A DNA stretch of 64,000 nucleotides from Colwellia sp. PAMC 21821. Lineage in GTDB: Bacteria; Pseudomonadota; Gammaproteobacteria; Enterobacterales; Alteromonadaceae. Location of the stretch: NCBI RefSeq assembly GCF_002077175.1, contig NZ_CP014943.1:2480001-2544000 (forward strand). The letters run 5' to 3'. How positions within the stretch are numbered: position 1 is the stretch's first letter; every line of letters starts with the position of its first letter. Position numbers and translations under genes: made by a program. The notes beneath the pieces are model-generated. The model was given only the letters and a program-made list of their open reading frames with translations. It was not told the DNA's origin and searched no databases. Of the stretch, positions 37,982 to 54,393 are shown piece after piece.

Positions 37982-38976
37982 TGTTTATTTACCTGCCATA
38001 ATTCGGCGTATCCTGAAGAGCTTTCAGTGATTACTTGGTTATTATCCCTAAAAGCGACACTATAAACAACTGCTCCAGCAGGTCTAATATCATCGCGTGG
38101 CAAAACTCGCCAGCTAGTTAAACGCTCACCCGTAGCAATATCCCATATACTTACCTTACGTGAAGGTGCGCCCGTTAATAGCTTAGTGCCATCAGGAGAA
38201 AACTGCACAGCACTAAAAACTTCTTGGCGATTAAAATATTTTAACTTAGAAATTAACTTACCGGTTTTTAAATCCCAAATATTTGCCGCCTTTTTACTGT
38301 CGGCGGTAAAGGCGTAACGGCCTTTGGCGTCAAGTGCCACCATAGTTACGCGGCTAGGGTGGTTAAAACGATAAATTACTTGTCCTGATACGGTATCCCA
38401 TACATAAGCAACAAAATCATTAGAGCCAGAAAGTGCAATTCGGCCATTAGGTAACATATCAACAGCATTAATTTTTTCTTGGTGGCCCAAAAACTCTAAA
38501 CGTCGACCGTTGGCAATCGTAATGTGCACGACTTTACCGTTACTTTGCCCAATCAGCAGGTAGTCACCATTATTTGACACGGCAACATCGCGAATAGTCG
38601 ACTCTGTTATTGACCAAAAACCTTCTGACAGGCCATTTTCTATATTCCATAATGAAAAGTCATGGCGATTGGCGGTTATTGCATGGCTATTATTATCGGC
38701 AATATCGGCTACCAAGACTAAGTTATCTGCGCTATTTTGCTGTTGCGACCAGTTATATTTCAGGGCGTTATTGTCTAAGTCCCACAAACTAATGCCGTGA
38801 TGAATAGATGAAACGACACTAAATTTAGCGTCATTAGATATATTTGCAGCGTAAGCTCCCTCTACCGCATGCTGCCATCTTTGCGCTGGCTCTTGGCCTA
38901 CCGGCTGACAAGCTGCTAGCAAAGCTAATAAAAACAGTAGTTTGGCTTTAATAAGTGTTTGGTTACAGTTTAACAA
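37978..38976 (-). CDS. WD40-repeat lipoprotein
   Basis: 332 aa. Lipobox LLAAC near residue 23 (LLFLLALLAACQPVG) indicates a lipid-anchored envelope protein. About six or seven WD40-like blades follow (for example ALSGSNDFVAYVWDTVSGQ, AFTADSKKAANIWDLKTGK, LLTGAPSRKVSIWDIATGE), enough for a beta-propeller scaffold. Translationally coupled to slyX. Partner unknown. Confidence 0.9.
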   Translation of the reverse strand: MLNCNQTLIKAKLLFLLALLAACQPVGQEPAQRWQHAVEGAYAANISNDAKFSVVSSIHHGISLWDLDNNALKYNWSQQQNSADNLVLVADIADNNSHAITANRHDFSLWNIENGLSEGFWSITESTIRDVAVSNNGDYLLIGQSNGKVVHITIANGRRLEFLGHQEKINAVDMLPNGRIALSGSNDFVAYVWDTVSGQVIYRFNHPSRVTMVALDAKGRYAFTADSKKAANIWDLKTGKLISKLKYFNRQEVFSAVQFSPDGTKLLTGAPSRKVSIWDIATGERLTSWRVLPRDDIRPAGAVVYSVAFRDNNQVITESSSGYAELWQVNKQ

Positions 38977-39095
38977 AATATTAATACTTTTTTCTTAGGG
39001 CATTTATCGTTAGTATAAGCCGCATTGTTTAACAATTCACACATATTTAAATGACTTAGCGGGGATTTCTGGCTAAGTAGTAAACGGAGATGTAC

Positions 39096-39854
39096 ATGAA
39101 ATTTTTTAAACCGACGTTAGTCGCTATTGCTTTATTATCAGTTATGGGTTGTCAAGAACCAGTTAAGCAAGAAGAACAAGCTGCTGCGCTTGATACAGAA
39201 ATACAAAAACAAGCCTACGGTTTAGGTGCTTCAATTGGTATGTACATGGAGCGTAATTTAGAAGAGCACGATAAATTGGGCTTAACGTTAGATAAGTCAC
39301 TTATTATCCGTGGCTTTACCGATAGCATGGACGGCAAGTCTCAAATAGAGCAAGAAGACATTCAAGCGTTGTTGATGAACTTAGATCAAGCAATGAAAGC
39401 AAAGCAAAAAGAGCAAGCAGCTGTTAGCTCAGAAGCAAGCTTAGCTGAAGGTCAGGCATTCTTAGCAGAAAATGCTAAAAAAGAAGGCGTTAAAGTTACT
39501 GAATCTGGTATTCAATACGAAGTTATAACAGCAACTGACGGCGAAAAGCCTGTTGCTACTGACACAGTAAAAGTTCACTACGTAGGTACTTTCCTTAATG
39601 GCGAAACTTTTGATAGTTCTGTAGAGCGTGGCGAACCAGCAGTGTTCCCACTTAACCGTGTTATTTCAGGTTGGACTGAAGGCGTGCAGTTAATGTCAGT
39701 GGGTTCTAAATTCAAATTTACAATACCTTCAGACCTAGCTTACGGACCAAATGGCAACCCGCCACGCATCCCGGGTCACTCAGTATTACAATTTGATATT
39801 GAATTATTAGAAATTCAAAAGCCAGAAGCAGCAGCACAAGTTGGCGATCAGTAG
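39096..39854 (+). CDS. fkpA: FKBP-type peptidyl-prolyl isomerase FkpA
   Basis: 252 aa. The signal peptide has a lipobox-like SVMGC, so it may be a lipoprotein, unlike soluble E. coli FkpA. Residues about 30-120 form the helical FKBP-N dimerisation domain, and about 140-240 the FKBP domain (VHYVGTFLNGETFDSS, GWTEGVQLMSVGSKFKFTIP, LAYG). Periplasmic chaperone and prolyl isomerase. ATG at 39096 chosen because GGAG is 6 nt upstream; an ATG at 39090 is also in frame. Confidence 0.94.
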   Translation: MKFFKPTLVAIALLSVMGCQEPVKQEEQAAALDTEIQKQAYGLGASIGMYMERNLEEHDKLGLTLDKSLIIRGFTDSMDGKSQIEQEDIQALLMNLDQAMKAKQKEQAAVSSEASLAEGQAFLAENAKKEGVKVTESGIQYEVITATDGEKPVATDTVKVHYVGTFLNGETFDSSVERGEPAVFPLNRVISGWTEGVQLMSVGSKFKFTIPSDLAYGPNGNPPRIPGHSVLQFDIELLEIQKPEAAAQVGDQ

Positions 39855-39882
39855 ATAAAAGCTTTTACTGCTTTTTAAATAT

Positions 39883-39911
39883 AAAAACCAACCGTTTAGG
39901 TTGGTTTTTTT
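39883..39911 (+). terminator. Rho-independent terminator of fkpA
   Basis: Stem AAAAACCAACC / GGTTGGTTTTT, 5-nt loop, T7 run. Confidence 0.93.
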
Positions 39912-39984
39912 ATCTGCGCGATTTAACTATATTTTTTATCAATACCACACTCTTGCGCTTAACCGGCAATATCCTTAATAAATA

Positions 39985-40590
39985 TTAAGCGTCTACAACA
40001 ATAACTTCACCGTTAATAAAACCATCTACTGAGCGTTCAAAAGCTTTACCCACTAATGTACTCGGTACAGGTTGGAAACCAGGCATCATCTCACCGTATA
40101 CATCCCATGCTTCAGTTAACACCGTTGGGTTAACTACATTAATACGCGTGTTTCTTGGCATTTCTAACGATACTATTTTAACAAAAGTATCAATAGCGCC
40201 ACTGGTTGTTGCATCTGCAATGGCAAATGGAATTGGTTTTTTATTTAAAATACCGCTAACTAAAGTAAACGACCCACTATCAGCAATATACTCTTGGCCA
40301 ATTCTAACTAAGTTAATTTGCCCCATCATTTTACTCATTACAGTTGTCATCCACTGTGCTTCAGTCATCTCACTAAAAGTAGCGTACTCACAAAAACCAA
40401 CGGTATTAACTACAGCATCGAATTTGCCAACCGTTTCATACAAAGCTCGAATAGACCGCTCATCAGTAATATCAACAATATGGTCAACATGGCCAGAACG
40501 GCCCGCTGTAATCACTTTGTGCTTACCTAAACCTGTTAACGCCGCTTGACCCATTTTTCCTAACGCACCGATTAAAATAACTGTTTTCAT
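39985..40590 (-). CDS. Short-chain dehydrogenase/reductase family protein
   Basis: 201 aa. Rossmann start MKTVILIGALGKMGQAAL (GxxGxxG), with VVNTVGFCEYATF as the NNAG-like motif and SGSFTLVSGIL containing the active-site serine. The usual YxxxK is not evident at the expected place (PFAIADATTSGAID), as in a known short subgroup, so catalysis is uncertain. ATG at 40590 preferred; a TTG at 40617 also lies in frame. Divergent from a LysR regulator that probably controls it. Confidence 0.87.
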   Translation of the reverse strand: MKTVILIGALGKMGQAALTGLGKHKVITAGRSGHVDHIVDITDERSIRALYETVGKFDAVVNTVGFCEYATFSEMTEAQWMTTVMSKMMGQINLVRIGQEYIADSGSFTLVSGILNKKPIPFAIADATTSGAIDTFVKIVSLEMPRNTRINVVNPTVLTEAWDVYGEMMPGFQPVPSTLVGKAFERSVDGFINGEVIVVDA

Positions 40591-40755
40591 TTGATTCTCA
40601 CTGTTAATTACTATCAATTTGGTTGAATTGATTTGATGGATAGATAATAAAGATATCTACAAACAATTAGAAACAATGAGTTTTTGTTAGTGATACAAGA
40701 GATTATGGTTATGTGTTAATTTATCAAAAGATAAAGTTAATAATGGCAAATACAT

Positions 40756-41640
40756 ATGAGTAAGTTAGACAGGTTAGATCTTAAGCAACTAAGGGTGTTC
40801 CAAGCCTTAATACAAGAAAAAAATGCATCAAAAGCGGCTAATCAACTAGGCCTTACCCAACAAGCGGTAAGCGAGCACTTAAAAAAATTGCGCGATGTTT
40901 TCGACGATAGACTGTTTCTGAGAAAAACCAATGGCTTTGTGCCAACGCCATTTGCTGAAAACTTAGCTATTGGTGTCGACAAACTACTACTTGAGTTTAG
41001 TGCGCTGCTATCCCCAACAGTGTTTAACCCTGAAACAATCGAGGGCACTTTTGTTATTGCTGCGACCGATTATGCTCAACAGGTAGTATTACCGGGGTTA
41101 ATATCTCAATTAAGAAAGAAATCGCCTAAGTTAAAGATCATTGTTCGTGACTTTGAATTAGATAAAGTGAATGAGCTAATGGAGAGTGGCAAAGTTAATT
41201 TAGCCATAGCATTTCCTGACTATATTCCTGACAGCTACCCCATTATAAAGCTTTTTGAAGAACATCACGTATGCGTTACCTCACCAAAGGCATCAATAGC
41301 GAATAAAACGCCAACCCTTGCTGAAATTGCAAGTTACCCCAGTATTATTGCATCTCCTTCACGACCAAACTTTAAAGGCTCGATTGACGATTGGTTCAAA
41401 AAGTTCGGTTTAAAACGAAATGTTGTTGTATCTGCACCATGTTTCTCAATTGTACCCATGTATTTAGAAACCACAGACTCAATCGCTTTTTTACCATCAC
41501 GAGCCATAACAAGCTTAGATCTAATCGAAATTGCGCTTGAAGAATCACCTGACAGTTTTGATGTTATCGCCGCTTGGCATCCTCGTTATAATGAAGATGC
41601 GTTGCAAAAGTGGGTGGTATCATTGTTAAAGGCTGAGTGA
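40756..41640 (+). CDS. LysR-family transcriptional regulator
   Basis: 294 aa. N-terminal winged helix-turn-helix (LDLKQLRVFQALIQEKNASKAANQLGLTQQAVSEHLKKL) and a C-terminal periplasmic-binding-like effector domain from about 90. Divergent from the SDR gene with a 165-bp spacer, the usual layout for a LysR regulator and its target. Effector unknown. Confidence 0.93.
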   Translation: MSKLDRLDLKQLRVFQALIQEKNASKAANQLGLTQQAVSEHLKKLRDVFDDRLFLRKTNGFVPTPFAENLAIGVDKLLLEFSALLSPTVFNPETIEGTFVIAATDYAQQVVLPGLISQLRKKSPKLKIIVRDFELDKVNELMESGKVNLAIAFPDYIPDSYPIIKLFEEHHVCVTSPKASIANKTPTLAEIASYPSIIASPSRPNFKGSIDDWFKKFGLKRNVVVSAPCFSIVPMYLETTDSIAFLPSRAITSLDLIEIALEESPDSFDVIAAWHPRYNEDALQKWVVSLLKAE

Positions 41641-41750
41641 GTAATAGCGTATAACGACAGTTAATTGCACCTGTATTTAAAAAGAGGGGTTTGAAGCTTT
41701 AGGTAATAAGTAAATTATTGCTCGCACATTGCTTACATTTCAACGAACCT

Positions 41751-41778
41751 GACCCCGCAGGTGTGACCCCGCAGGTGT
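41751..41778. repeat. 14-bp tandem duplication
   Basis: GACCCCGCAGGTGT occurs twice in tandem and is more GC-rich than its surroundings. Confidence 0.9.
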
Positions 41779-41863
41779 TAATGACGCCGTTTTAACGACG
41801 TTAAGTGTTACTGTCGGCGGCATTTTTCAATATATTTTGTAATTTTTACACAGCGTACATGAA

Positions 41864-42022
41864 CTATTTTTTAGCAATAATCCATACGGCATGAATAATG
41901 CCGGGCAAAAATCCAAGTAAGGTTAGGATAATATTTATCCAGAAATGCTTACCAAAACCAACTTGTAGAAATACGCCTAAAGGCGGCAGAATTACTGCAA
42001 AAATTAAACGAATAATATCCAT
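41864..42022 (-). CDS. yqaE: Pmp3/YqaE family membrane microprotein, 52 aa
   Basis: Two-helix hydrophobic peptide: MDIIRLIFAVILPPLGVFLQ, GFGKHFWINIILTLLGFLPG, IIHAVWIIAKK. The ILPPLGVFLQxGxGxxFxINIxLTxLGxxPGIIHAxWI pattern is the signature of Pmp3/YqaE proteins, which affect membrane potential under stress. GGAG lies 7 nt before the ATG. Lies next to a DUF4112 membrane protein on the same strand. Confidence 0.93.
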   Translation of the reverse strand: MDIIRLIFAVILPPLGVFLQVGFGKHFWINIILTLLGFLPGIIHAVWIIAKK

Positions 42023-42151
42023 AATAAACTCCGATGTGTATGTTGTTTCATTAATTAATAACTCATTATGTTGAGCTATCTGACTTATTGTTTTAAGGAT
42101 AATGGTTTGTCATCCTACAAACACTAACAGTGAATATTGCAATAATTATTC

Positions 42152-42535
42152 CTAGTCGGCTTCTACGGCCTCTTTTTGTTGATTATTCTGGCTTAACCAC
42201 CATTCTTCCATAATACGTACATTTTTCAGGTTAGATTTATAAAACAAGTCGGCTACATCGCCAACAAAAGGAATAACGCCTAACAGAAAATCAATCGCAA
42301 TATTTTTTAACATGGTCATTCTAAGGGCTAATGGCACTTGTATTTGCTTAGCCATGTCAACAATGGTGAGCGATACACCCACCATAATAAAGTCTCCCAC
42401 AACAGGGATAAGGCCCACCAAAAAATCTAATCCTAAGGGAATACCTACTATAGGAATGCGAATTTTAGAGTCGGCCATATTAGCTAACTTCTGGGCTTTT
42501 AAAAGGGCTTTAGGTGCTTGTGCGAACTCGTTCAT
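42152..42535 (-). CDS. DUF4112 family membrane protein
   Basis: 127 aa. The DUF4112 signature is KLANMADSKIRIPIVGIPLGLDFLVGLIPVVGDFI, and a second GVIPFVGDVADLFYKSN resembles the first, suggesting an internal duplication with re-entrant hydrophobic hairpins. Function unknown. 129 bp upstream of the YqaE-like gene on the same strand; co-expression is possible. Confidence 0.9.
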   Translation of the reverse strand: MNEFAQAPKALLKAQKLANMADSKIRIPIVGIPLGLDFLVGLIPVVGDFIMVGVSLTIVDMAKQIQVPLALRMTMLKNIAIDFLLGVIPFVGDVADLFYKSNLKNVRIMEEWWLSQNNQQKEAVEAD

Positions 42536-42938
42536 TTATTTCCTTCATCGTTTACAACTTTATTGATTATCGCCAACGAATTGATGTTTCCTACCATTCA
42601 GCGATCATGGTTAATATTCGGCTAAGCTTGGAGTTAAGGTTGAAGTTAAGGTTAGAGCTAAGATTAGGATTAGTTGGGGATATTAGCCAATAAATATTTC
42701 TCAGTTTTGACGCTATAACTCACCCTACAACATCAATACCTACGTCAACAGGTAACATTAAAGCATCTTTACCAAGAGAGTAATATTATTAGATTGTGAT
42801 TGCTAATTTGCGGCTCAGCAAGCACTAGTCGCCAGTAATTATATTTGAAATCAATAGTCTTCAAGCATTATTTATTTGCAAGCTGAGAAGTAGCGAGTAA
42901 ACTGTTGTATAAAAATCACTCAAAAACAAGGATCGATT
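42536..42938. other. 403-bp intergenic region
   Basis: No gene seen. A run of imperfect short repeats (GAGTTAAGGTT, GAAGTTAAGGTT, GAGCTAAGATT) covers about 42630-42672. Confidence 0.5.
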
Positions 42939-43481
42939 TTGAAACTACTGACTTTTATTTTACTCTTTATTTACTCTACATTGAGCTTCGCCCAAGAAAA
43001 TACCCCCATTGAAGCACTTGGCCAAAATGAAGGCTATGCGATTATTGCTATTTATAGTAAAGGCTATGCCGAGAAAATTGTCCTTGAAGGGGCTGGCTTT
43101 GGTAACACACATACTTTTGGCCCCTTAGATTATGAGCAACATTTTAGTGTCGTAAAACTAAAAGCGGGGACCTATCATTGGGAAAAGGTACACAGAAAAA
43201 TAGGACAGTCGCTCACGCAAACCACACGATTTGATGAATTGGATTTAAGTTTTAATGTTGAAGCGGGCAAACTTAACTACACGGGGTTGTTAATGTTTGA
43301 AACGGATAATAATCAGTCTTCCGCAAAAATATTAAATCGCACCAGTATTATTTTGTCGATCACCAAGCAAGATTTTCCGCAGTATTTAAAGCAATTTTCG
43401 GTAGTAAATGGTATCTACCCAAATGACCAATATATCGGTTTTTTCCTCAATAAATCTAAGCCTGTACAGCAAGGAGAATAA
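42939..43481 (+). CDS. Hypothetical secreted protein upstream of an S9 peptidase
   Basis: 180 aa, start TTG with AAGGAT upstream. Signal peptide MKLLTFILLFIYSTLSFAQ. The mature protein is beta-rich (GYAIIAIYSKGYAEKIVLEG; HFSVVKLKAGTYHWEKVHRKIG; LNYTGLLMFET) and resembles small envelope proteins with an Ig-like or lipocalin-like fold, but I do not recognise the family. The S9 peptidase gene starts 1 bp after its stop, so both are probably one operon. Confidence 0.7.
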   Translation: MKLLTFILLFIYSTLSFAQENTPIEALGQNEGYAIIAIYSKGYAEKIVLEGAGFGNTHTFGPLDYEQHFSVVKLKAGTYHWEKVHRKIGQSLTQTTRFDELDLSFNVEAGKLNYTGLLMFETDNNQSSAKILNRTSIILSITKQDFPQYLKQFSVVNGIYPNDQYIGFFLNKSKPVQQGE

Positions 43482-43482
43482 A

Positions 43483-45501
43483 ATGAAATTTTTACTTTTT
43501 GCTCTTCTCATGGTGCAATTTAGCTGCTTTAGCCAGACGACTAGTGACATAAAAGAACAGTCTGCACGTTCAAATAACACGGCAATAAAAAACTTTTTTA
43601 TGAAAAGTGACTTCTCAAATTTTAGCCTCAGCCCTTCGGGAGAGTTTGTTGCTTTTGTTAAACAATCTACTGAAAAATACAGTGTTTTTTTGGTAAATGT
43701 AAAAAGCGGCGCAGAATTTGAAATTCTACGTGCCGAGCAATTTTCAATTGAACATGTCCGGAAAGAAAACTATATACGGACAATAAAGCATAAAAATGAA
43801 ATTACCAATATTACGTGGCTAGGTAGCCGTATTATTGCCGTTAGAGAAAATTCTAAAGGCAAATTTCGTCGTTTTAAAATTGTAAAGTTAGATGTTGCCC
43901 AAGATGATGTTATCGTCGATAAAGTCAATTATTTAAATCATGACGGCTATTGGATAGACCCTGTTGTTAGCAGTAACAGTCGCGCTATTTTTGCCAAATA
44001 TAAAGCCAATGATGAAAATGACATTGGCTATCATGTCGATTTATACCAATTACAATTTAAAAATAAAAATTTAGATGGTCAAACACGTAATACAAAACGC
44101 TTGAATCGTGGTGGTGCAAAATTACCACATTGGTTAATTGATAAAAAAGGCCATCGCACTGCAGGTATTCGCTATGTTGAAAGAAAGCCTGAGCTATTTA
44201 TTCGCAGCGGAGGTCGACCTCAATCATACCGCTGGAATCATGTTTGGACCGGCAATAAAGGGGATTATTTCCTGCCGGTTTTATACGATGAACAAACGTC
44301 ATCATTGTATGTATTGACCAACCATAATAGCGACAAAAAATCACTGCAGATATTCGACTTATCAAGCCATAGCATACGAGAAACGGTTTATGCACACCCC
44401 AAGTATGACCTAGACGGTGTAATGATAGCCCATGATTCAGTTAAGGTTTTAGGCGTTCGATATATTGAAGGTGGCATAGTAAATCAGCATTATTTTGATG
44501 ATAGACTGTTAACGCACAAAACGGTTTTGGCTAAGCAATCAGCTGCCGACAACATTTATTCTATAGACGCTGCGATAGACAATGATAATAGATTATTCAG
44601 TGTTTCAGGCAGTGATAATAGTGGTGAAGTTTTCGTTTACCGCGAACAGACAAATGATTATAAGTCGCTCGCGGTGCTTAAGCCTTGGCTTAAAAATGTC
44701 GCTTTACAAAAATCAAAAGTGCTGACCTTAACAACGGCTGATAAAAGTACGATTGAAGCCTTTGTTACCTTGCCAGAAGCCATTACTAACCCGCCACTAC
44801 TGGTTATTCCCCATGGCGGCCCCATTGGCGTAAGTGACTCGCGGTATTACTCCCCCGAAATACAAGTGTTAGTCAACGCAGGGTTCGCCACTTTACAAGT
44901 AAACTATCGTGGCTCTGCAGGATATGGCAAAAAGTTTAAGCAAGCTGGTATGGGGCAGTGGGGACAATTAATTGAAGATGATATTGAATTAGCCCTGGCA
45001 CATGTTAAAAGTAATTTTGCTATTGCTAAAGACAAAGTGTGCATTATTGGCGGCAGTTATGGCGGCTATTCAGCACTATACAGCGTTATTCGCTCACCTG
45101 ACTTATATCAATGTGCCGCTTCTTTCGCAGGAGTAACTGACCTTGCTTTATTGTTTCAACGTTCAGATGTTGAAAACGATGATGATATACAAAGTCAATT
45201 AAGAGAAATTGTTGGTGACCCCAAAATAGAGCAAGAGAAGCTATTTACCTACTCACCTATATATCACGCCAGTAAACTCACCAAGCCGCTTTTTATCGCT
45301 CACGGCACCGATGATAATGTGGTGGATATTGAACACGCGTACCGATTAAGGTTTGCTCTAAAGGCCTATAAAATTAAGCATAAGTGGTCAGTATTAGACG
45401 GCTTCCGACATGGCTTTGATACCCCCGAGCAAGCCGACTATTATTACTCACAATTAATTCCCTTTTTAAATAAGTATTTAAAAGATCAAGATGTGGAGTA
45501 A
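43483..45501 (+). CDS. Secreted S9 family prolyl oligopeptidase-like peptidase
   Basis: 672 aa from the ATG at 43483, which has AAGGAGA upstream and gives a signal peptide (MKFLLFALLMVQFSCFSQ); a longer frame from 43408 lies inside the preceding gene. An N-terminal beta-propeller covers about 35-390 and the alpha/beta hydrolase about 400-670. The catalytic triad is S525 (GGSYGGY), D611 (HGTDDNVV) and H643 (FRHGF). Predicted acylaminoacyl- or dipeptidyl-peptidase acting on peptides outside the cytoplasm. Confidence 0.93.
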   Translation: MKFLLFALLMVQFSCFSQTTSDIKEQSARSNNTAIKNFFMKSDFSNFSLSPSGEFVAFVKQSTEKYSVFLVNVKSGAEFEILRAEQFSIEHVRKENYIRTIKHKNEITNITWLGSRIIAVRENSKGKFRRFKIVKLDVAQDDVIVDKVNYLNHDGYWIDPVVSSNSRAIFAKYKANDENDIGYHVDLYQLQFKNKNLDGQTRNTKRLNRGGAKLPHWLIDKKGHRTAGIRYVERKPELFIRSGGRPQSYRWNHVWTGNKGDYFLPVLYDEQTSSLYVLTNHNSDKKSLQIFDLSSHSIRETVYAHPKYDLDGVMIAHDSVKVLGVRYIEGGIVNQHYFDDRLLTHKTVLAKQSAADNIYSIDAAIDNDNRLFSVSGSDNSGEVFVYREQTNDYKSLAVLKPWLKNVALQKSKVLTLTTADKSTIEAFVTLPEAITNPPLLVIPHGGPIGVSDSRYYSPEIQVLVNAGFATLQVNYRGSAGYGKKFKQAGMGQWGQLIEDDIELALAHVKSNFAIAKDKVCIIGGSYGGYSALYSVIRSPDLYQCAASFAGVTDLALLFQRSDVENDDDIQSQLREIVGDPKIEQEKLFTYSPIYHASKLTKPLFIAHGTDDNVVDIEHAYRLRFALKAYKIKHKWSVLDGFRHGFDTPEQADYYYSQLIPFLNKYLKDQDVE

Positions 45502-45559
45502 TGGGCTTTAGAGAAGCCGTTATTTCTGGTTTTAGAAGTACTTAACTTAAGATGAGAAA

Positions 45560-45589
45560 AAGCGAATTTTAATCGATTAAAATTCGCTT
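45560..45589 (+). terminator. Perfect 30-bp palindrome, probable terminator of the S9 gene
   Basis: AAGCGAATTTTAAT pairs with ATTAAAATTCGCTT around a CG centre, 58 bp after the S9 stop and followed by an AT-rich tract. Confidence 0.65.
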
Positions 45590-45620
45590 ATTTATTTTCT
45601 GGCATTTATCCGCTACGAGA

Positions 45621-45885
45621 CTTATACCAAATGTAATAAGTTATTGACCAATTTTAAGCGAGGATAAATTGTTCAAGAATACATGTTTATTGTTCCAGAC
45701 TAAACATAAGTACCAGCATCCCTGCAGGCAAGGCGTTTGATTGATTAGGGCATGGATGCCCGTAAGTAGAACAATGCAGGAGCAATTGTCGAGTAATAGC
45801 GGGCGTGTGTGATTGAAAACAACGCAGTTATTGACGATTTAAACCGCCTTAGAATGATCGATTATTTATTTCAATTGGTATTACT
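45621..45885. repeat. 265-bp MITE-like repeat with imperfect terminal inverted repeats
   Basis: The ends CTTATACCAAATGTAATAA and (reverse complement) GTAATACCAATTGAAATAA match at roughly three quarters of about 28 positions. The interior has no coding frame but has small palindromes (GGGCATGGATGCCC). I associate ATACCAAT-bounded intergenic repeats with Alteromonadales, but this cannot be searched here. Confidence 0.55.
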
Positions 45886-45920
45886 AGAGTGTGATGGTAT
45901 TTATCGTCGCTATTTATTTT

Positions 45921-45948
45921 AGGCAATAAAAAAGCCTTACCGAAGTAA
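45921..45948. repeat. attL, left 28-bp direct repeat
   Basis: Starts AGGCAATAAAAAAGCC and ends ACCGAAGTAA; identical to 54197-54224. TTATTT precedes both copies, separated from the core by one differing base (T here, C on the right). Here the terminator hairpin contained in the core is broken. Confidence 0.88.
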
Positions 45949-46221
45949 TATTTAAATGTTCACTAAGATGTTGTAATTATTGAGTTTAAAGTTTTTTGTT
46001 TTTGTTCGGGATTCTTTGGGGATGCCTTGGTGATAATCTTAATTCATTAAAAAATTATGCTAGCTTAGATGCACAATTATAATTTAGGGCTATTAAGCAG
46101 TTTTTAGCCCTGATTTATTAATAGGATGAAACCATGTCTTTTTAGGTTGTGTATCGCCTCCTCAATGTGATGAAGAGGTGTCCAGTAAAATGGTGAACTT
46201 CATATTCGGTTTAGAAATTTG

Positions 46222-47373
46222 TTAGGTTTGCTCTGTTAAATATATTGTATTGTCGATAACTCTAAAGTTAAAGGCATCGAGTAAGCGGGCTGATCTTGGA
46301 GTTACATTTAAAACTCCTTTGCAACTCACTAAATGTGAACATTCGTGAGCATGTACAGCTTGCCAGTAATTATCAAGAGGTAACTGAATTACAACGTTTT
46401 TATCTACTCCTCTTACTAGTGATTTTACAGTTATTTCGCCATACTCATCATCAGGTAAGTGTTTCATTTTACTCACAAGCCCATAAGCTTCATATTCCTT
46501 AATCGTATACTTTCCCTTGTAGTACGAAGAAGCAATCTCTAAGAACTGGACTTTTGATGGCTTGAAAGAAAACTGCTTCGGTAACTCTTGATGATCACTT
46601 TCAGATCCAGCTAGAGTAATAATTATATTGAATGACCTAGTTTTATTTGAACCACTTAAACCACATAATGCATCACATAAATTCGCACTAACCCCCTTAT
46701 CAATAACTTCTTCGAAATCATATACATTAGAAGATTTCTCATATTGTTCAATCGAGTTAGAAAGCGCTTGAAGACTTCTAGATAAATTATTAGTTACAGA
46801 TCTAGTAATGGATACATTATCTTCATCAACTTGGCTACTATCATAAAATTGAATTGGGGCAATAAGGTTAACGATAAAGCTTCCAACTTCTGTTTGCCCA
46901 AGCCTCAATTGATTTAGATAGTCTTGAACGTCTTTGCTACGTTGACCAGAAAAATGTCTTTTTTTCTTAAATGTTGATAATGTTGAAGCTAATAATAAAT
47001 CTCTAGCTTTTTCTACTAGTAATACACCATCATCTATCGGAATTGAACCCCCTTCTACATCATCATGTACAACACGTACCTTAACTAAATCGGAGTAAAA
47101 ATTTGTAATATCAACTGCAATATCTTGTAAAGATCTTTTCTCATATTCAGCTAAAGCTTTTAATGCATCATAAACCCTTTGTTGATATGCTTTAATATCA
47201 ACAGATAAAGGCTGTATTACCTCAAAGTCATAAGATTCAGGCTCTTCTCTGTGCCAAATTAATGCATGCTCAAAAATGTTCCCATCTCTTATCCATCCTT
47301 TAGACTCAAGATAATCAGATAGTCCATTTGGACTTATTTCTATTATAAATTTATTATCAATTATAGAACTCAT
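46222..47373 (-). CDS. Cargo protein of unknown function, 383 aa
   Basis: Not recognised. Soluble, without signal peptide or membrane segment. A segment near 140-175 (GQRSKDVQDYLNQLRLGQTEVGSFIVNLIAP) looks like the conserved core. A helical linker follows (about 190-245), and the C-terminal 100 residues are beta-rich, ending in ARLLDAFNFRVIDNTIYL, which could be an OB-like domain. HECSH at 343-347 fits HExxH but is probably fortuitous. Its start overlaps the stop of the DUF4365 gene by 4 bp, so the two products are probably made together. Nearest to attL, the usual cargo position. Confidence 0.75.
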   Translation of the reverse strand: MSSIIDNKFIIEISPNGLSDYLESKGWIRDGNIFEHALIWHREEPESYDFEVIQPLSVDIKAYQQRVYDALKALAEYEKRSLQDIAVDITNFYSDLVKVRVVHDDVEGGSIPIDDGVLLVEKARDLLLASTLSTFKKKRHFSGQRSKDVQDYLNQLRLGQTEVGSFIVNLIAPIQFYDSSQVDEDNVSITRSVTNNLSRSLQALSNSIEQYEKSSNVYDFEEVIDKGVSANLCDALCGLSGSNKTRSFNIIITLAGSESDHQELPKQFSFKPSKVQFLEIASSYYKGKYTIKEYEAYGLVSKMKHLPDDEYGEITVKSLVRGVDKNVVIQLPLDNYWQAVHAHECSHLVSCKGVLNVTPRSARLLDAFNFRVIDNTIYLTEQT

Positions 47374-47870
47374 GCTGCGACCCCTCTAATACTTGCCAAC
47401 TCCATGAGTTCAATTAAACTTTCTGCAGTCAATAAGTTAACCTTGGGTATGTGTAATGTTACAGTTGTATCATTGCAACTATCTGGCAATTCTGACAGTG
47501 ACATCCAATAACAGCAGTGTTTTAGTTTTGTATGATCTTTTTCGTGGGATAGCCAACCATCCGTTTCTGTTGGTACAGCCAAAACAAATAAATACCTAGG
47601 ACATAATAAGTCATCACCACGTAAATCATTATAGTTTTTAATCGATAATTGATATGTAAAGTAGTCATCACAACCATTATTTTTTGCAGTGCATTTAAGC
47701 TGAATTTCTAATTGTGGATTTCGAATACCAGCACTAAAACCACGACCTTTTAAAATCAAGTCAACGCTATCATCATCAACATCAGGTATTGAGGACCTGA
47801 AACCTACTTGTGCGGCTAGAGCTCCAACGAAGGCTCGGCTAAATAACTCTTTTCTTTGATTAGTATCCAT
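47370..47870 (-). CDS. DUF4365-like PD-(D/E)XK-fold protein
   Basis: 166 aa. The N-terminal half matches DUF4365 as I know it: DDDSVDLILKG and then LEIQLKCT, which place D37, E55, Q57 and K59 in the order of a PD-(D/E)XK nuclease site. The family occurs in defence islands and mobile elements; nuclease activity is unproven. Translationally coupled to the 383-aa gene. A predicted pair in which a nuclease-like protein and a large partner act together is an inference. Confidence 0.8.
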   Translation of the reverse strand: MDTNQRKELFSRAFVGALAAQVGFRSSIPDVDDDSVDLILKGRGFSAGIRNPQLEIQLKCTAKNNGCDDYFTYQLSIKNYNDLRGDDLLCPRYLFVLAVPTETDGWLSHEKDHTKLKHCCYWMSLSELPDSCNDTTVTLHIPKVNLLTAESLIELMELASIRGVAA

Positions 47871-47966
47871 AGCTCATCTGATATATGTGAAAAACCTAAA
47901 CGCCTCATTCAGAGGCTCAATATTGTTAACTAAAATTAGCGAGGCATGCGCAATAGCCAGCTGTAT

Positions 47967-48734
47967 CTAGTCCTGCTTAATTGATTTGCTATGTTTTTTT
48001 TCTTCTTTATCTAAATTATCAATACGCTCAGGGTTACTGTCGCTCCAATTATCTGCAAAGCCTTTACTTAAACTTCCGATTGCTTGATCAATAAACTTAG
48101 CAATCTTTATATTAACTTTAGTTTCATTATTTTCACCGTCTGTATGACTTTCATAATCCCAGAATTTTGCGCTGATTTTTGTAGTTATAGCTTCACCTGC
48201 CATTGTTTTAACATTTATTTCTAAAGGCACAGAACCTAATAATACAATTAAAGGAACTGCCGTGGCTGTTGATTTATACCACGGAGGGTCAATTAACAAC
48301 GCATTATCTTCTAAATAAGATAATGCAATATCGTATTCTTTGTTTGCGAGTTCATAGCTAATCGAGGCTTTTGAACGATTGGGATTTTTTATTGAAATTA
48401 TGTGGTTTTCATCAATGATTGGAAAACCTATTTCTTCAAGGTTTTCAATTAGCTTCTTGACGGGTTGATCATACCTTATATAACCACCCCTTGTTTTAAT
48501 GTGTTCCACTAAGTCTCGACTGTACTTTGATATTACGTCTAATGCTTTTTGTTCAATGGATTCATCTTCTAGCTTTGCAATACCATTTGCTAAAACAATC
48601 ATTAGAGTTAATGTCGAGTTAGAGGATAAAACAACAGGAGAGTCTTTTTTTTCTATAAATGTACTATTTGCAAGCCATAAAACAGCTAACTCTGCGGGAC
48701 TTAATTGCTTGATTTTGTTCATTTGATCATCCAT
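47967..48734 (-). CDS. Cargo protein of unknown function, 255 aa
   Basis: Not recognised. The first about 120 residues are helical, the middle is beta-rich with one hydrophobic stretch (ATAVPLIVLLGSVPLEI, about 160-176), and the tail is very charged (DKEEKKHSKSIKQD). ATG codons at 48734 and 48722 are both possible starts. It lies 96 bp upstream of the DUF4365 gene on the same strand, so it may belong to the same cargo operon. Confidence 0.7.
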   Translation of the reverse strand: MDDQMNKIKQLSPAELAVLWLANSTFIEKKDSPVVLSSNSTLTLMIVLANGIAKLEDESIEQKALDVISKYSRDLVEHIKTRGGYIRYDQPVKKLIENLEEIGFPIIDENHIISIKNPNRSKASISYELANKEYDIALSYLEDNALLIDPPWYKSTATAVPLIVLLGSVPLEINVKTMAGEAITTKISAKFWDYESHTDGENNETKVNIKIAKFIDQAIGSLSKGFADNWSDSNPERIDNLDKEEKKHSKSIKQD

Positions 48735-49084
48735 GAACGATTAAACTCCGATTGAAATATAGCAGACTGTTATGAATGATTTTCAATAATACTCGACTCA
48801 TAACCCTTAATTAATTGTAGTTAATATCCCACAATTTCAGAGCTTTAGAAACTAAAATATAATATTTTTGTTAAAGTTTAAGGGGTACTTAGAAGTATCA
48901 GTAAAATCCAGTAGTCCCACCACCATTATTACTAATAATATTAATATACTTTGTTGGATACTGTTATTCATTTTGATTTCTGAAACCGCCCAGTATTATG
49001 ACATGATTAAATTATTAGAAAAAATGAATGTAATTATTATCAATGTCTAGGCTCGTAACTTGTTAATATAGATAGTTAGTACAG
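48735..49084. other. 350-bp spacer between rep and the cargo genes
   Basis: AT-rich; probably carries the promoter of the cargo genes. A short plus-strand frame (48868-49050) lacks a ribosome site and is not called. Confidence 0.5.
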
Positions 49085-50818
49085 TTATTTACAGAACTCC
49101 AAGTTAGAACAAACTACGTTCGTTCTTTCTAAACGCCAACTGAAAAATCTAGTGACAATCATTTGACCTTGAAAATAAACACCCTTAATACTTTGTATTA
49201 TATTTCCGTCATAAAACCCAAGTTTACACTCGCCAGTTTCGCTATCGAAAGATGTATCATAGGCTAGCTTAATTGGTTGATCTTTACGTTTACAAAACAC
49301 GCCACCCATGGCAGTAATATAATCATCCCATTTACTTTCATCAGCGGCTATTCGCGCTTTTTCTAATACTAAATCTATACCAAGTGATTTTCTTAATCGT
49401 CTTAATTCACGCCACACCGTCACAGAAGCGCCACCAATTTGCTGAAACTGACGAATGCACCATGTAGAAGCCCAAGCATCAACACGTTGCGCTGCAGTGA
49501 TAGGGTCTTCACCATAAACGCCTTTATCAAGGCATTTACCATCTATATTCTTTGAAACGTATTTCGCAACATAGCCGGTAGCTGAACCTTTCTTTGGGTC
49601 AATTAATTTAAAGTCGCAACGATTTTCAAGTGCTCCTCTTTCATCACCATCTTCTTGCAGCGCGTAATGGCTTATAACGCCTTTTACGCGTTCTACTTGC
49701 TTGGATTCAACAAAAAGAATTAAATGCCAGTGGGGAGTGCCATCATGCTGCGGTTCAGCAATTCTGAATCCGTAGGGTTTAATATTTTCTCGATTCCATT
49801 GGGCGCGAACCTTTGCCCATACATCGCATAAATATTGGTTAGCTTGATAAGGCGTGAAGTCTTGATATTTAGGATTAGGTTTGCCTGATTTTGCAAACAC
49901 AGCATGATACTTAGAAGGGCAGGTAATGGTAATAAAAATACCTACGTGATCGTGCGATTTTGATAAATCTTCAAAACCACGTAAACGTAACATTAATTCA
50001 GCTTTTCTTATTTCTGGGTTTGATACGTTTAAATCTGATAATTCCTTTAGTGTAAATTGCTGTCCAACGTCATTCATTACTGATATTGAGCTAAGTAATT
50101 CATCGTTACGTGCTCTTTGCTGTTTTCGATTGTTAACGGTTAAGTCACTGGCATATATTTGAGCATGTTTACTGACTAAGCCTAACTTAATGGCCGCTTG
50201 TTCGTAGGCTTGCTTGAACACTTTTCTAAGGCTGGGAATCCACCATCGTTTATCACACATGCGTTTTATAGCGCCTAATTCTGTTACGCCTTTTTTCGTA
50301 AGTGATATTTTTTTAAGTCCAAACGATTCAACATATTCTGTTAACAGTGGGTAGATATCGCTTGTGTTCGTTACGGAAATTTCCGTTAACGGAATATTGG
50401 ATTCCGTTACGTTAACGGAATTTGAATCTTCATTCGATTCTGTTAACGATTTACTTCGTCCCTTAACATTATGATGAAGTGCTATTCTTCTACAGCGTTC
50501 GGCACAGGCAATCGCAATATATCGAATTTCGTCTTCGTTAACGGTTAATGTCAATCGAAGCTTTTCAGGTAAGTAACTAACTAAGCTTTCTGTCATGGTA
50601 CGAATATAAGTATTTTTTTCGTAACGAGTTTTTAGCTTATTTGCCTTATCTAACACATGCTTTTTTAATACGTCAGGTAATTTGTTCAAACAATTAAAGG
50701 TAAACTCTACATCTCGTCTATCAGCGGGGCAGGTGTGCCATTCAGTTGAAAGGAATTTATCGTCTTGATAAATAGCTGCGATTTTATTTAGTTGAGTTTC
50801 AATGTGTTTATTCTGCAT
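49085..50818 (-). CDS. P2 gpA-like HUH replication endonuclease (Rep)
   Basis: 577 aa. The HUH motif is H363-W-H365 (PHWHLILFVES). The two active-site tyrosines are Y416 and Y420 (GYVAKYVSKN), the YxxxY arrangement of superfamily-I rolling-circle Reps such as phage P2 gpA. A low-complexity Ser/Thr/Asn region (about 120-150) corresponds to a cluster of inverted repeats in the DNA that may be the replication origin. Start overlaps the end of orf90 by 11 bp. Expected to nick the element for rolling-circle replication. Confidence 0.9.
   Translation of the reverse strand: MQNKHIETQLNKIAAIYQDDKFLSTEWHTCPADRRDVEFTFNCLNKLPDVLKKHVLDKANKLKTRYEKNTYIRTMTESLVSYLPEKLRLTLTVNEDEIRYIAIACAERCRRIALHHNVKGRSKSLTESNEDSNSVNVTESNIPLTEISVTNTSDIYPLLTEYVESFGLKKISLTKKGVTELGAIKRMCDKRWWIPSLRKVFKQAYEQAAIKLGLVSKHAQIYASDLTVNNRKQQRARNDELLSSISVMNDVGQQFTLKELSDLNVSNPEIRKAELMLRLRGFEDLSKSHDHVGIFITITCPSKYHAVFAKSGKPNPKYQDFTPYQANQYLCDVWAKVRAQWNRENIKPYGFRIAEPQHDGTPHWHLILFVESKQVERVKGVISHYALQEDGDERGALENRCDFKLIDPKKGSATGYVAKYVSKNIDGKCLDKGVYGEDPITAAQRVDAWASTWCIRQFQQIGGASVTVWRELRRLRKSLGIDLVLEKARIAADESKWDDYITAMGGVFCKRKDQPIKLAYDTSFDSETGECKLGFYDGNIIQSIKGVYFQGQMIVTRFFSWRLERTNVVCSNLEFCK
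50369..50450. other. Inverted-repeat cluster inside rep, candidate replication origin
   Basis: Contains the palindrome TTCCGTTAACGGAA (50381-50394), the stem ATTCCGTTA/TAACGGAAT with a CGT loop (50401-50421), and further CGTTACGGAA and TGTTAACGA copies. P2 carries its own origin inside gene A, so a double-strand origin here is reasonable. Confidence 0.5.
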
Positions 50819-51080
50819 CGAAACACTCCTTAAAAGTTTTTATACCAAATTCATTGATTGAGAAACGCTTATATTCAATCGCCAAAATCGTAATTGTTTT
50901 ACCAGAAATAAGCCCTTTAGCTTTTAAGTCTCTCAAATCACCTTTTTTGATTGAAAGCTCTTCGTTACGGTTGGTAATGATTTGGCCAAATGTATTACCA
51001 AGCTCAATACAAACATCAGCATTTAAACCGTTATAAAACCAACGCAAATAATTAAGGTTATTAGATGTGTAGTTAGGCAT
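50808..51080 (-). CDS. Small protein between alpA and rep, 90 aa
   Basis: Not recognised. MPNYTSNNLNYLRWFYNGLNADVCIELGN start, then a probable winged-helix-like C-terminus (KKGDLRDLKAKGLISGKTITILAIEYKRFSINEFG). It overlaps alpA by 8 bp and rep by 11 bp, so it belongs to one tightly packed operon and may be a regulator or Rep accessory protein. Confidence 0.65.
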   Translation of the reverse strand: MPNYTSNNLNYLRWFYNGLNADVCIELGNTFGQIITNRNEELSIKKGDLRDLKAKGLISGKTITILAIEYKRFSINEFGIKTFKECFDAE

Positions 51081-51279
51081 AACGGCTATCCGTTTCTAAT
51101 AAATTATTTAAGCCTTGTTCGATAAAATTGTTGATGTCAGAAAGACGGTATTTAACTCTGCGGCCAATTTTTACAAATGGTAGAGGGTAACGTGCAGTGC
51201 AGCGCCAAACTGCTAATGTACCAATGGTGACACCTAAAATATCTGCTGCTTGCGTGGGGGTTAGTAAATTTTGATTCAT
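51073..51279 (-). CDS. AlpA-family excisionase/regulator
   Basis: 68 aa, one helix-turn-helix (LLTPTQAADILGVTIGTLAVWRCTARYPLPFVKIGRRVKYRLSDINNFIE). This is the AlpA/Xis layout with a beta-wing GRRVKY. In P4-like elements such proteins drive excision or rep transcription. Repeats at 51356-51394 upstream are good operator candidates. Confidence 0.9.
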   Translation of the reverse strand: MNQNLLTPTQAADILGVTIGTLAVWRCTARYPLPFVKIGRRVKYRLSDINNFIEQGLNNLLETDSRYA

Positions 51280-51355
51280 TTGATACCTCGAATATGTATT
51301 AGTATTAATTTCGAGGTCACTATGATTTTGTTAGCTTGGTGTGTAACTGCGCGTG

Positions 51356-51394
51356 ACAGTGAGAAATATCTTTATCACAGTGAGAAAGATATTT
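51356..51394 (-). promoter_or_regulatory. Candidate operator upstream of alpA
   Basis: Direct repeat ACAGTGAGAAA at 51356-51366 and 51377-51387 (period 21 bp), interlaced with the inverted repeat AAATATCTTT / AAAGATATTT (51364-51373 and 51385-51394). Located 77-115 bp before the alpA start. Confidence 0.5.
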
Positions 51395-51398
51395 TTGC

Positions 51399-52142
51399 TT
51401 ATTTATTCTTAGTTTCGGCTAATAGCCATTTATAAATGGTTTTGCTGGCTTGGTATATCCCAGTGAAGTGAAAGTTTTGAGTTTTACCATAATTAAACAC
51501 TTTTTCTGTAATGTCTTCGGCAGCTTGATTAGCGTTTCTGTATGCTTTTTCGTGAAATAATTGCAAAGCATATAAACGAGTATTTTCTTTTGCTTGCCAT
51601 CTTTTTGACTGACCGAGTTTAGCCGCTTTACGGGCGGTAGTGCTTTTTACTTCTTTTTGAAATGCTTGGCTTTGTATTTCACCTAAAAAACGTTCGGAAT
51701 TTATAACTTCTAATAACGCCAATTCTAAAAGCTTTTTCCCTGCGTTGGTGTGACCGACTAAAAAAGCAGAAAGGGCGTATCTAATATATTCGATTAGGTT
51801 TGGTGAAATACTGTCGAGCTTTTCAATCAAACTTGAGTAATCAGGCGTTTTTACTGAGCCACTGTTACTAATATTAAACTCTACTAATGCGGCCACACTT
51901 TCATCTAATAACTTTGCCATTACCTTTTTGTTAGGTAAATCACCGCCGTTGCGTTCAATAATAGGTTTGAAAAATAATGCCGTAATGTCGACTAATTCAT
52001 CAACAAACATTTTTAGATTCGAAGTTACTACGACTTGCATATTTTTTACTGAGCCAAAAGTTTTTAATAACTCTGCAGCTTTATCTTCAGCTAATAAAAT
52101 TTTTGATAGCGATTGCTTTATTTCTTCAGGGGACATTTTCAT
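51399..52142 (-). CDS. Element protein of unknown function, 247 aa
   Basis: Not recognised. Almost entirely helical and soluble. The C-terminal third (AAKLGQSKRWQAKENTRLYALQLFHEKAY...YGKTQNFHFTGIYQASKTIYKWL) is basic and aromatic, which would suit nucleic-acid binding. Separated from alpA by the operator-like repeats. Confidence 0.6.
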   Translation of the reverse strand: MKMSPEEIKQSLSKILLAEDKAAELLKTFGSVKNMQVVVTSNLKMFVDELVDITALFFKPIIERNGGDLPNKKVMAKLLDESVAALVEFNISNSGSVKTPDYSSLIEKLDSISPNLIEYIRYALSAFLVGHTNAGKKLLELALLEVINSERFLGEIQSQAFQKEVKSTTARKAAKLGQSKRWQAKENTRLYALQLFHEKAYRNANQAAEDITEKVFNYGKTQNFHFTGIYQASKTIYKWLLAETKNK

Positions 52143-52215
52143 TATAGTTTTTTCTTTTATTACCTAGCTGATTTCTTGTTGCAAATGAACAGAATTTAGA
52201 AATGAGGAGCATGTT

Positions 52216-52707
52216 TTATTGGTCGTTTTTTTGAATTCTCTGACAAACTTTATCTCGCTTTGCTAACAGTTCTTTATTGCTACTTCCCATTGCCTTTAAT
52301 ATTAATTGATTACAGGCTTTTTCGTTGGCGTTTACTTTTATGGTTGATGTGCTAGAGATGGATGCGACCATAGGTTTGTATTTCACAGCAGCGTTACAGT
52401 ACATACGTTTATATTGAGCTTTTGTGTTATTAGGTTTTTTAAGTCTTGATAATTCGTTACAAATGTCTGAAAAAAGTGATTTGGCTTTGATAGTACATGA
52501 AGAAAACCTTATGGTGTTTTGCTGATAAGTAGCGCAAACGGAATCATCTTTAATGCGCCATAGTTGGTGCTGAAATGAAATTTTCTCATTTTTGTATTCA
52601 ATGACTATTGGGGTAATATCTAAATTTACGCTTTCTCTGTAATGGCCATTTATATCGGTACTTAATGATAATAAATAAGCTGAAAGTAATGAGCTGATCG
52701 GTTCCAT
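52216..52707 (-). CDS. Element protein of unknown function, cysteine-containing, 163 aa
   Basis: Not recognised. About six cysteines are spread along the chain (SVCAT, SSCTI, DICNEL, MYCNAAV, KACNQL, KVCQRI). With the mildly hydrophobic N-terminus (SSLLSAYLLSLS) this hints at an exported disulfide-bonded protein, but no clear signal peptide is present. Lies 12 bp downstream of int. Confidence 0.6.
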   Translation of the reverse strand: MEPISSLLSAYLLSLSTDINGHYRESVNLDITPIVIEYKNEKISFQHQLWRIKDDSVCATYQQNTIRFSSCTIKAKSLFSDICNELSRLKKPNNTKAQYKRMYCNAAVKYKPMVASISSTSTIKVNANEKACNQLILKAMGSSNKELLAKRDKVCQRIQKNDQ

Positions 52708-52719
52708 CCGAAATCCTTT

Positions 52720-54045
52720 TTAATTTTCTAAATAGTCCAATACTGATAGGCATTCATCTTCAGATAGTTTGCTGATTTTTTCAAGCAGCAATTCTTTAGG
52801 TGTTAGATTTCTTTTTAGTTGGCCACTGGCAATTTGCAATGCATCAGTCGCTTTTTGTACACCAGCTCTAATTGTATCACCAGATAAGTGAGCATAAGAC
52901 TTGGCCGTTGTCGAAATATCAGAATGGCCTAGGCTTTTTGATATAGATAAAAGGTCAACACCTTCTAATGCTTGCCAGCTCGCTAATGTTTTTCGCATCG
53001 TATGCGGTGTGATTCGCTTAGTTGCATCGGTGCTATCTAAACCTGCTCGTTCTATTATTCTTTTCCAATAACCTGAAATATCACTTTTAGTTGATAAGTG
53101 GCCTGTTTTGTTACCTCGTTGTTTGGTGGCAAAAACATAAGGGGAATTATCAAAGTCTTGTTCGTGACTGATTAATCGTCTTTTAAGGATTTCTATTGCT
53201 GGCGTTGCTAACTGAGCATGGTAAACCGTTTTAGTTTTTGTTTTCGTATGTGGGATAGTCCATACACCGCGCTCAAGATCTAATTCGTCCCATTCCATAC
53301 TATAAACATTGCCTTTACGTTGGCCTGTGTAAATTAGTATTTGAACAACATCTTGGTAAATTGGCTTCTCTTGATTTAATGAATCAAATAAAGCGGCAAT
53401 TTCTATTTTGTTTAAAAATCGAGTTCTTGATTCGATGCGAACCTTAGATATACCAGAAAAAGGATTACTTTTAACTAGTTCATGGCTTTCGGCAAATTTA
53501 AACATAGCTCTTAATAGCGCAATAGAGGCGTTAAAAAGTCCAGCGGTTAACTTTGCCTTGATATCGTCAGTTATACGCAAGGCGATCGCGTGAGTTACTT
53601 CTTTAGCGCGATATTTACCAATGCGAGGTTTTACGTGTAGTTTCCATGTGCGACTAAAGTCTTCTAGCGATTTAAGTCTACGCTCACCCACTTTTATTCT
53701 AGCTCTGAAGTTTTCTTCATATTGTTCGTATAGATCAACAGTGGTTAAGTTTTGTAGCTGTTGCTCTCTTTTTTGTGAGGTTGGATTAATACCATTTTCA
53801 AGCAGTAGTATTTTCTCTCTAGCCTTTTTCCTCGCTTGTTCAATAGTATTGGCAGGAAATCGTCCCAAAGTAACCCTGACATATTTGCCATCAATCTTTT
53901 TAGCTACAGAGAATGATTTAACCCCAGAGGCCGTAACCCGTAAGGTTAGTTCAGGTATTTTAGTGTCTCGGTATTCTGCGCGGCCTTGTGTTGGAAGCGT
54001 GATTTTCTCTAATGAAGCAATTGTGAAGTTAAAGCGACTAGACAT
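52720..54045 (-). CDS. int: Tyrosine recombinase/integrase
   Basis: 441 aa of the P4-like group with an N-terminal DUF4102-type domain (TLPTQGRAEYRDTKIPELTLRVTASGVKSFSV) and a central SAM-like domain. Catalytic residues are R243 (GQRKGN), H348 and R351 (HTMR), H374 (LGHSD) and Y384 (AKSYAHL). Complete, so integration and excision should be possible. It adjoins attR, as usual. Confidence 0.96.
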   Translation of the reverse strand: MSSRFNFTIASLEKITLPTQGRAEYRDTKIPELTLRVTASGVKSFSVAKKIDGKYVRVTLGRFPANTIEQARKKAREKILLLENGINPTSQKREQQLQNLTTVDLYEQYEENFRARIKVGERRLKSLEDFSRTWKLHVKPRIGKYRAKEVTHAIALRITDDIKAKLTAGLFNASIALLRAMFKFAESHELVKSNPFSGISKVRIESRTRFLNKIEIAALFDSLNQEKPIYQDVVQILIYTGQRKGNVYSMEWDELDLERGVWTIPHTKTKTKTVYHAQLATPAIEILKRRLISHEQDFDNSPYVFATKQRGNKTGHLSTKSDISGYWKRIIERAGLDSTDATKRITPHTMRKTLASWQALEGVDLLSISKSLGHSDISTTAKSYAHLSGDTIRAGVQKATDALQIASGQLKRNLTPKELLLEKISKLSEDECLSVLDYLEN

Positions 54046-54196
54046 TTTTAATCCGTTATAAATGCTGGGGATACTCTGGGGATACTTTAAAGGTGTATTT
54101 CGGTCAATTTCGGTTAAATTGCATTAATACTAAAAATTAAAGAATCGCGCTGTAGCCCTTGTAAATTAATGTCCGTTAATCTTATCACATTATTTC

Positions 54197-54224
54197 AGGC
54201 AATAAAAAAGCCTTACCGAAGTAA
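54197..54224. repeat. attR, right 28-bp direct repeat
   Basis: Identical to 45921-45948. With the following GGCTT it completes the hairpin AAGCCTTAC-TTCG-GTAAGGCTT on the minus strand, which then has a T run. Confidence 0.88.
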
Positions 54225-54229
54225 GGCTT
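54205..54229 (-). terminator. Terminator overlapping the attachment site
   Basis: On the minus strand AAGCCTTAC, TTCG, GTAAGGCTT, then T4ATT. A TTCG tetraloop terminator, apparently the integration target. The transcript it ends is not identified. Confidence 0.75.
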
Positions 54230-54393
54230 GAAATGCTCGCTGTGTGGTCTAGTAAACTAGCTTCTTTTTATTTATTTCTTTATTTTTATTATTGTTTTTC
54301 TTTAGCGCGGGACATTTATAGCAAACGCCTTTTCTTGGTGCAACAACTTTAATAGAGCATATATTCCACGAACTTTTTCGTATAAGCCGTGTT

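Follow-up and report, generated by a model that had tools for sequence, protein, structure and literature searches.

The window analysed here is a 64,000-nt stretch of the Colwellia sp. PAMC 21821 genome (contig NZ_CP014943.1, positions 2,480,001 to 2,544,000), which is a single 4.88-Mb contig. It includes a block of nine open reading frames (ORFs), all on the minus strand, lying between two copies of a direct repeat, and the block is described below as an integrative element. Its features, and those of the host gene at its right-hand end, are as follows, with E values in parentheses for profile matches; G and L numbers are our designations for genomes and loci.

45921–45948, no strand: attachment (att) core at the cargo end; 28-nt exact repeat with an incomplete terminator hairpin, continuing TATTT instead of GGCTT
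46010–46026, no strand: possible integrase arm-type site at the cargo end; similar GTATCCCCA/GCATCCCCA strings occur at the integrase end and in L054 and L059
46222–47373, minus: cargo gene PDC-M02B, 383 aa (PADLOC, 2.2e-149); 145 homologues; structure model with mean pLDDT 85.7
47370–47870, minus: cargo gene PDC-M02A, DUF4365, 166 aa (Pfam, 1.4e-20; PADLOC, 6e-64)
47967–48734, minus: orf255, with no Pfam, PADLOC or PHROG match; 20 proteins including itself
49079–49103, minus: predicted origin of replication (ori; Rep nick site), containing the rep stop codon and matching the annotated nick site of phage P2
49085–50818, minus: Rep, a P2 gpA-type HUH endonuclease, 577 aa (Phage_GPA PF05840, 6.9e-86)
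50808–51080, minus: orf90, winged-helix-like, overlapping the start of rep (AlphaFold mean pLDDT 92)
51073–51279, minus: AlpA-like regulator/excisionase, 68 aa (HTH_17, 6.6e-9)
51399–52142, minus: orf247, accessory; 49% identity in G014 and 35% in G179; three proteins found
52216–52707, minus: orf163, accessory; 88% identity in G014
52720–54045, minus: tyrosine integrase (Int), 441 aa (PF00589, 9.1e-29)
54065–54085, no strand: possible integrase arm-type sites at the int end; two GTATCCCCA strings
54197–54224, no strand: att core at the int end, which is the 3' terminator of a host small RNA; hairpin complete
54202–54313, minus: host small RNA (attB gene), divergent from hemE, with TTGCAC-17-TATAAA just upstream, which we read as promoter-like

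The direct repeat is exact over 28 nt, with copies spaced 8,276 bp apart, and can be extended to 35 nt at 34/35 identity (45914–45948 and 54190–54224). The runner-up listed within the same 10.5 kb is 36 nt at 75% identity, and allowing up to 4 substitutions revealed no third core copy in the window. Fourteen of 16 congeners have a single unsplit copy of the site, running on into the remaining host terminator, with one substitution each in G013 and G016. In G003 the host small-RNA gene stands in two tandem copies (~504 bp apart; L076), and in G014 two core copies 9,438 bp apart enclose a relative with a 98% identical integrase; the integrase is present in 2 of 17 genus genomes. An earlier reading made from the letters alone (the sequence-only reading) had taken the 28-bp repeat as the exact boundary of the block and looked to related genomes for an empty site. 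Both expectations hold: with exact direct repeats and an empty site in its kin, the block is a real integrative element, complete by anatomy.

The left flank of G014 is clean, its last 473 nt being 86% identical to G009 up to the end of the unsplit G009 core. That of the window is less so: the conserved block at 38001–39911 lies ~6 kb from the core, compared with ~50 bp in G005, because other genes intervene. The intervening region (39912–45913) has only partial matches, in 4 of 15 congeners; an FKBP-like gene lies just before it and a peptidase-like 697-aa ORF inside.

As to gene content, the sequence-only reading listed an intact tyrosine integrase beside the right repeat copy, an AlpA regulator and a P2 gpA-like HUH Rep, with no capsid, tail or conjugation genes. 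Profile scans bear this out: the three matches are those given above, and no capsid, tail, terminase, relaxase or type IV secretion system (T4SS) family was found in the nine ORFs (Pfam, PADLOC and PHROGs, E 0.001). The HUH histidines and two tyrosines of the gpA-family Rep (H363, H365, Y416, Y420) are conserved without exception in 16 Reps. At the rep stop codon, CTTGGAGTTCTGTNAATAANTGTA agrees with the annotated nick site of phage P2 at 20 of 23 bases (compared by eye), which strengthens the earlier suggestion of a rolling-circle make-up; such a Rep and such a nick sequence are those of a P2-type rolling-circle replicon.

The ori consensus, CTTGGAGTTCTGT(A/C/G)AATAA, is present with at most one mismatch in 19 nt in all 21 loci compared (the window and 20 others), which were chosen by Rep or Int and not by the motif. 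It lies within the last 12 codons of rep, supplying the stop codon, or up to ~400 nt beyond, and is read in different frames among these loci. Its chance expectation in the window is 0, and the host genome has two copies, each beside a Rep. In 196 family genomes a scan gave 41 sites, spread over 32 genomes (42 table rows, one site being entered twice), with 38 of the sites exact; a reversed-pattern control found none. Rep is adjacent at 35 of these sites, AlpA at 22 and Int at 22 (one a fragment), and 14 have repeat ends. Among 80 listed loci from an ori scan of genome contigs, Int, AlpA and Rep are found together within 8 kb at 10, including loci of Nitrosomonas, Nitrosospira and Methylophilus, and 19 lack a match to any of the three models. 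The ori lies at or beyond the end of rep in 35 of 36 AlpA-linked rows (some being the same locus fetched twice), and inside rep in most viral-contig rows. In the order, 85 of 295 genomes have Rep-like matches at 1e-30, but the weaker matches probably include many phage Reps.

Twenty regions were compared for gene order: 18 around close Rep relatives, G014, and the second Rep of the host genome. The int–alpA–orf90–rep synteny with variable cargo expected from the sequence-only reading is found in most of them, as the plan int, variable genes, alpA, a small (winged helix-turn-helix) gene, rep, ori and variable cargo. Departures include L062, cut by a contig end; L067, with a split int; and L071, which lacks orf90. 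L071 (4838000–4856000 of the host genome) is a second such element, with an exact ori, Rep, AlpA and Int. Of 19 loci searched for direct-repeat ends, 13 have them, with spans of 8.4–12.8 kb; none were found in L055, L056, L067, L069, L070 or L071. ARAGORN was run on 20 loci with repeat ends (these 13 and seven from the family ori sites), overlap being judged by coordinates: in 17, a tRNA-Met or tRNA-Arg overlaps the att copy away from int. The other three (L054, L059 and L435) are small-RNA users, and no tRNA was found in the window.

Downstream of the ori, PDC-M02A and PDC-M02B are adjacent, as in the PDC-M02 defence candidate of PADLOC, and the pair is likely an example of this anti-phage candidate. 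No solved-structure relatives were found by sequence for either protein, and no paper on PDC-M02 by name in the literature searched. Twenty cargo ORFs of 13 relatives were hand-picked for PADLOC, which at 1e-10 matched 10 of them, in eight of the relatives. L066 has an AbiL/AriA-like ATPase and, in the interval from int to alpA, an RT-Toprim retron-type protein; L073 has a UG10 reverse transcriptase, L060 beta and cll, and L063 PD-Lambda-2_B; weaker matches are found in L064, L065, L068 and L072. Helicase, HNH and PbeA matches are weak grounds for defence, and the PADLOC names capP and RmrA in relatives may denote repressor–protease pairs. Among 81 non-core ORFs (3 of the window and, out of 133 in the relatives, 78; core genes and three small ORFs were set aside), the Pfam lists include no capsid, terminase, relaxase or T4SS family; nor are there PHROG structural families among the matches listed (25 of 51 and 25 of 31 families). 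Comparison of orf90 with the PDB gave weak matches, none at E 0.001; homology to P2 Orf83 was considered and rejected, there being no similarity.

Comparison with G014 bears on the history of the element. The int end, including the host small RNA (52354–54385), is 97.2% identical over 2,032 bp, and the rep–alpA part (49076–51279) 95.4% over 2,204 bp, whereas hemE is 88.7% identical and the next 1.3 kb 76.3%; the core therefore moved from one species to the other after their split. The cargo regions of the two are not alignable, so the cargo was swapped. As judged from G014, then, the element is recently transferred and its cargo exchanged.

The attachment site, by sequence comparison, is the terminator of a conserved, undescribed small RNA beside hemE. 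Its gene consists of a GC-rich start, an A-rich leader, a hairpin, a stretch of AGCGAGCA that does not vary in 21 rows, and the terminator. In the drawn structure, 4 of 12 pairs change on both sides (20 distinct rows), a figure reached by 1 of 500 shuffles; against the structure, one of these four is unpaired in 17 of the 20 rows. A covariance model, with strict filters that lose weak matches, finds the gene in 64 of 192 family genomes and 21 of 52 genera, once in 62 of them and twice in G003 and G388; in the order it is found in 9 of 290 genomes, all of the same family. There is no Rfam match. Relatives of the integrase were sought in 17 genus and 192 family genomes, and this lineage (the window's own and those at 98, 77 and 72% identity) sits in the small-RNA terminator in four cases of four. 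Here the small-RNA gene is complete on the int side, whereas in tRNA users it is the opposite side that has the complete tRNA.

We read the block as an intact integrative element with rolling-circle replication that moves by hitching, with a probability of roughly 0.8. Int, with AlpA as directionality factor, would excise it as a circle, by analogy with PICMI115 (discussed below). Rep would nick the ori, which lies where the rep gene ends, and drive rolling-circle copying, as its motif and residues suggest. Having no transfer genes, the element would have to move by hitching, most likely inside helper-phage particles. It would reintegrate at the host small-RNA terminator, which the sequence shows to be left intact, since the att core repeats the terminator sequence. 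The slot after the ori holds exchangeable cargo, here a two-gene anti-phage candidate of potential benefit to host and element. A whole-element search of plasmids gave no match.

Several observations weigh against this reading, or parts of it. In IMG/VR, an ori scan gave an AlpA match in 0 of 80 listed loci, and in a Rep scan the best identity among 80 listed loci was 45%. Rep matches occur in 324 of 50,697 phage records, all at below 60% identity. The host genome has no gpA-type Rep beyond those of its two elements and no Terminase_6N match, so there was no sign of a resident helper of these types. Rep, AlpA and Int are all in reach at only 19 of the 41 family ori sites, the shortfall being attributed to contig ends and decay. 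Int is at the cargo end in L072 and L073, and the ori of L263 is exceptional in lying 175 nt inside rep. Nor is the cargo all defence: PADLOC matched none of the ORFs picked from L054, L057, L058, L059 and L061.

Of known systems, P4-like satellites and PICIs have an integrase, alpA, small size and defence cargo, together with capsid-size or family-specific primase genes. The first four features are shared, but membership was rejected, since the nine ORFs have no capsid-remodelling or family-specific primase match at E 0.001. Closer in layout are the PICMI. Their description (PMC10803314) gives a 6.1-kb prototype and a mean of 6.7 kb, with co-located int, alpA and prim as mandatory and integration next to fis as a hallmark. 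The likeness extends to int, an adjoining gene, alpA, a small gene, a replication gene and a defence slot before the far att site, to the lack of capsid genes, to marine Gammaproteobacteria as hosts, and to small size (here 8.3 kb). The replication gene there is a primase, in contrast to the HUH Rep here, and the site is at fis rather than a small-RNA terminator; with no primase match among the nine ORFs and a site beside hemE, the element is by these two features not a PICMI, and membership was rejected. P2-like phages (P2, AF063097) share the gpA-type Rep and the 23-nt ori block, but the ori is inside A in P2 and at the rep stop codon here, and the element has no virion genes. The Rep is also 40% identical to P12 of corticovirus PM2 (NC_000867) over 360 aa; unlike the element, corticoviruses encode a capsid protein and a packaging ATPase, and the PM2 block has 4 mismatches in 25. 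PM2 was rejected as confirmation of the motif, since its record marks a 'cleavage site' at 2253–2254 and the ori-like block is at 3508. The sequence-only reading had matched the element to no named family, and no description of the family was found in the literature either, in a search that mostly did not extend to subscription papers.

In a careful tree of 47 Reps, a single 32-row branch (100/100) takes in all 26 AlpA-linked Reps along with L103, L145, three Reps of unknown context and, on a long branch, a filamentous-phage Rep; the Rep of PM2 itself is outside it. The hidden Markov model by which Reps were gathered had element Reps as its training set, which biases its scores, so that the tree is the test; the element group was named after sight of a quick tree that carried long-branch warnings. 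Within the branch, 20 element Reps from Gammaproteobacteria make up a clade (97/93), four from Betaproteobacteria group with L103 and L145, and L071 and L240 are elsewhere. A single clade of all element Reps was rejected (p-AU 2.6e-5; long branches are present), so assembly or exchange of the int–alpA–rep plan, or of its Rep, probably took place on more than one occasion. L103 and L145 are circular corticovirus-like contigs, with terminal repeats of 61 and 127 nt and homologues of the PM2 capsid protein and ATPase; both carry the element ori at 0–1 mismatch.

How the element might move can be considered in this light. It could be a phage satellite proper, a helper phage triggering AlpA and the rolling-circle product being packaged in helper particles, as for PICMI; we would give this even odds. 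The gene order resembles that of PICMI115, in which alpA expression alone triggers activation (PMC10803314), and circular corticovirus-like contigs having the same ori fall in one branch with the element Reps, but no packaging signal, helper or virion copy was found, and there is no element-like locus among the IMG/VR loci listed. Transfer by a conjugative system acting in trans, with Rep serving as a relaxase in an integrative mobilizable element, seems unlikely. The MOBT relaxase family is related to rolling-circle Rep proteins (PMC11389934). Against this, neither a relaxase nor a coupling protein occurs in the element or in the Pfam lists for the 81 non-core ORFs of the window and its 13 relatives; gpA-type Reps are not known to act as relaxases.

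A P2-like or corticovirus-like prophage stripped of its structural genes would account for a Rep and ori of phage type. It would not so readily account for a distinct branch of 20 element Reps, for the recurrence of the plan with direct-repeat ends in other loci, for an ori at the end of rep where most phage loci have it inside, or for open ORFs and recent transfer; the remnant reading is disfavoured, and quite improbable. Of these, helper-phage transfer of an intact rolling-circle element appears the favoured route.

It is possible, though we hold this only tentatively, that the element belongs to a widespread, undescribed family of defence-carrying rolling-circle satellites, with an int–alpA–rep–defence plan on a P2/corticovirus-type Rep and ori. 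The Rep or ori may be interchangeable with those of small tailless or P2-like helpers, and one lineage would target a new small-RNA terminator as others use tRNA genes. The Rep and 24-nt ori provide a sequence handle on small mobile elements that often carry anti-phage genes, and the element suggests that unrelated replication enzymes have been used to build the satellite plan. Also brought to light is a conserved small RNA next to hemE, the terminator of which serves as an integration site.

Five ori sites without a Rep (L416, L417, L432, L436 and L439) were considered as ultra-minimal elements; this was rejected, and they are read as decay. L439, at the same small-RNA site, has traces of orf163 and rep (by eye); for the other four, decay is not proved. 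L416, L417, L432 and L439 have in common an upstream TGCCAGAATGGCA-like hairpin, which is perhaps an ori accessory site of one subgroup.

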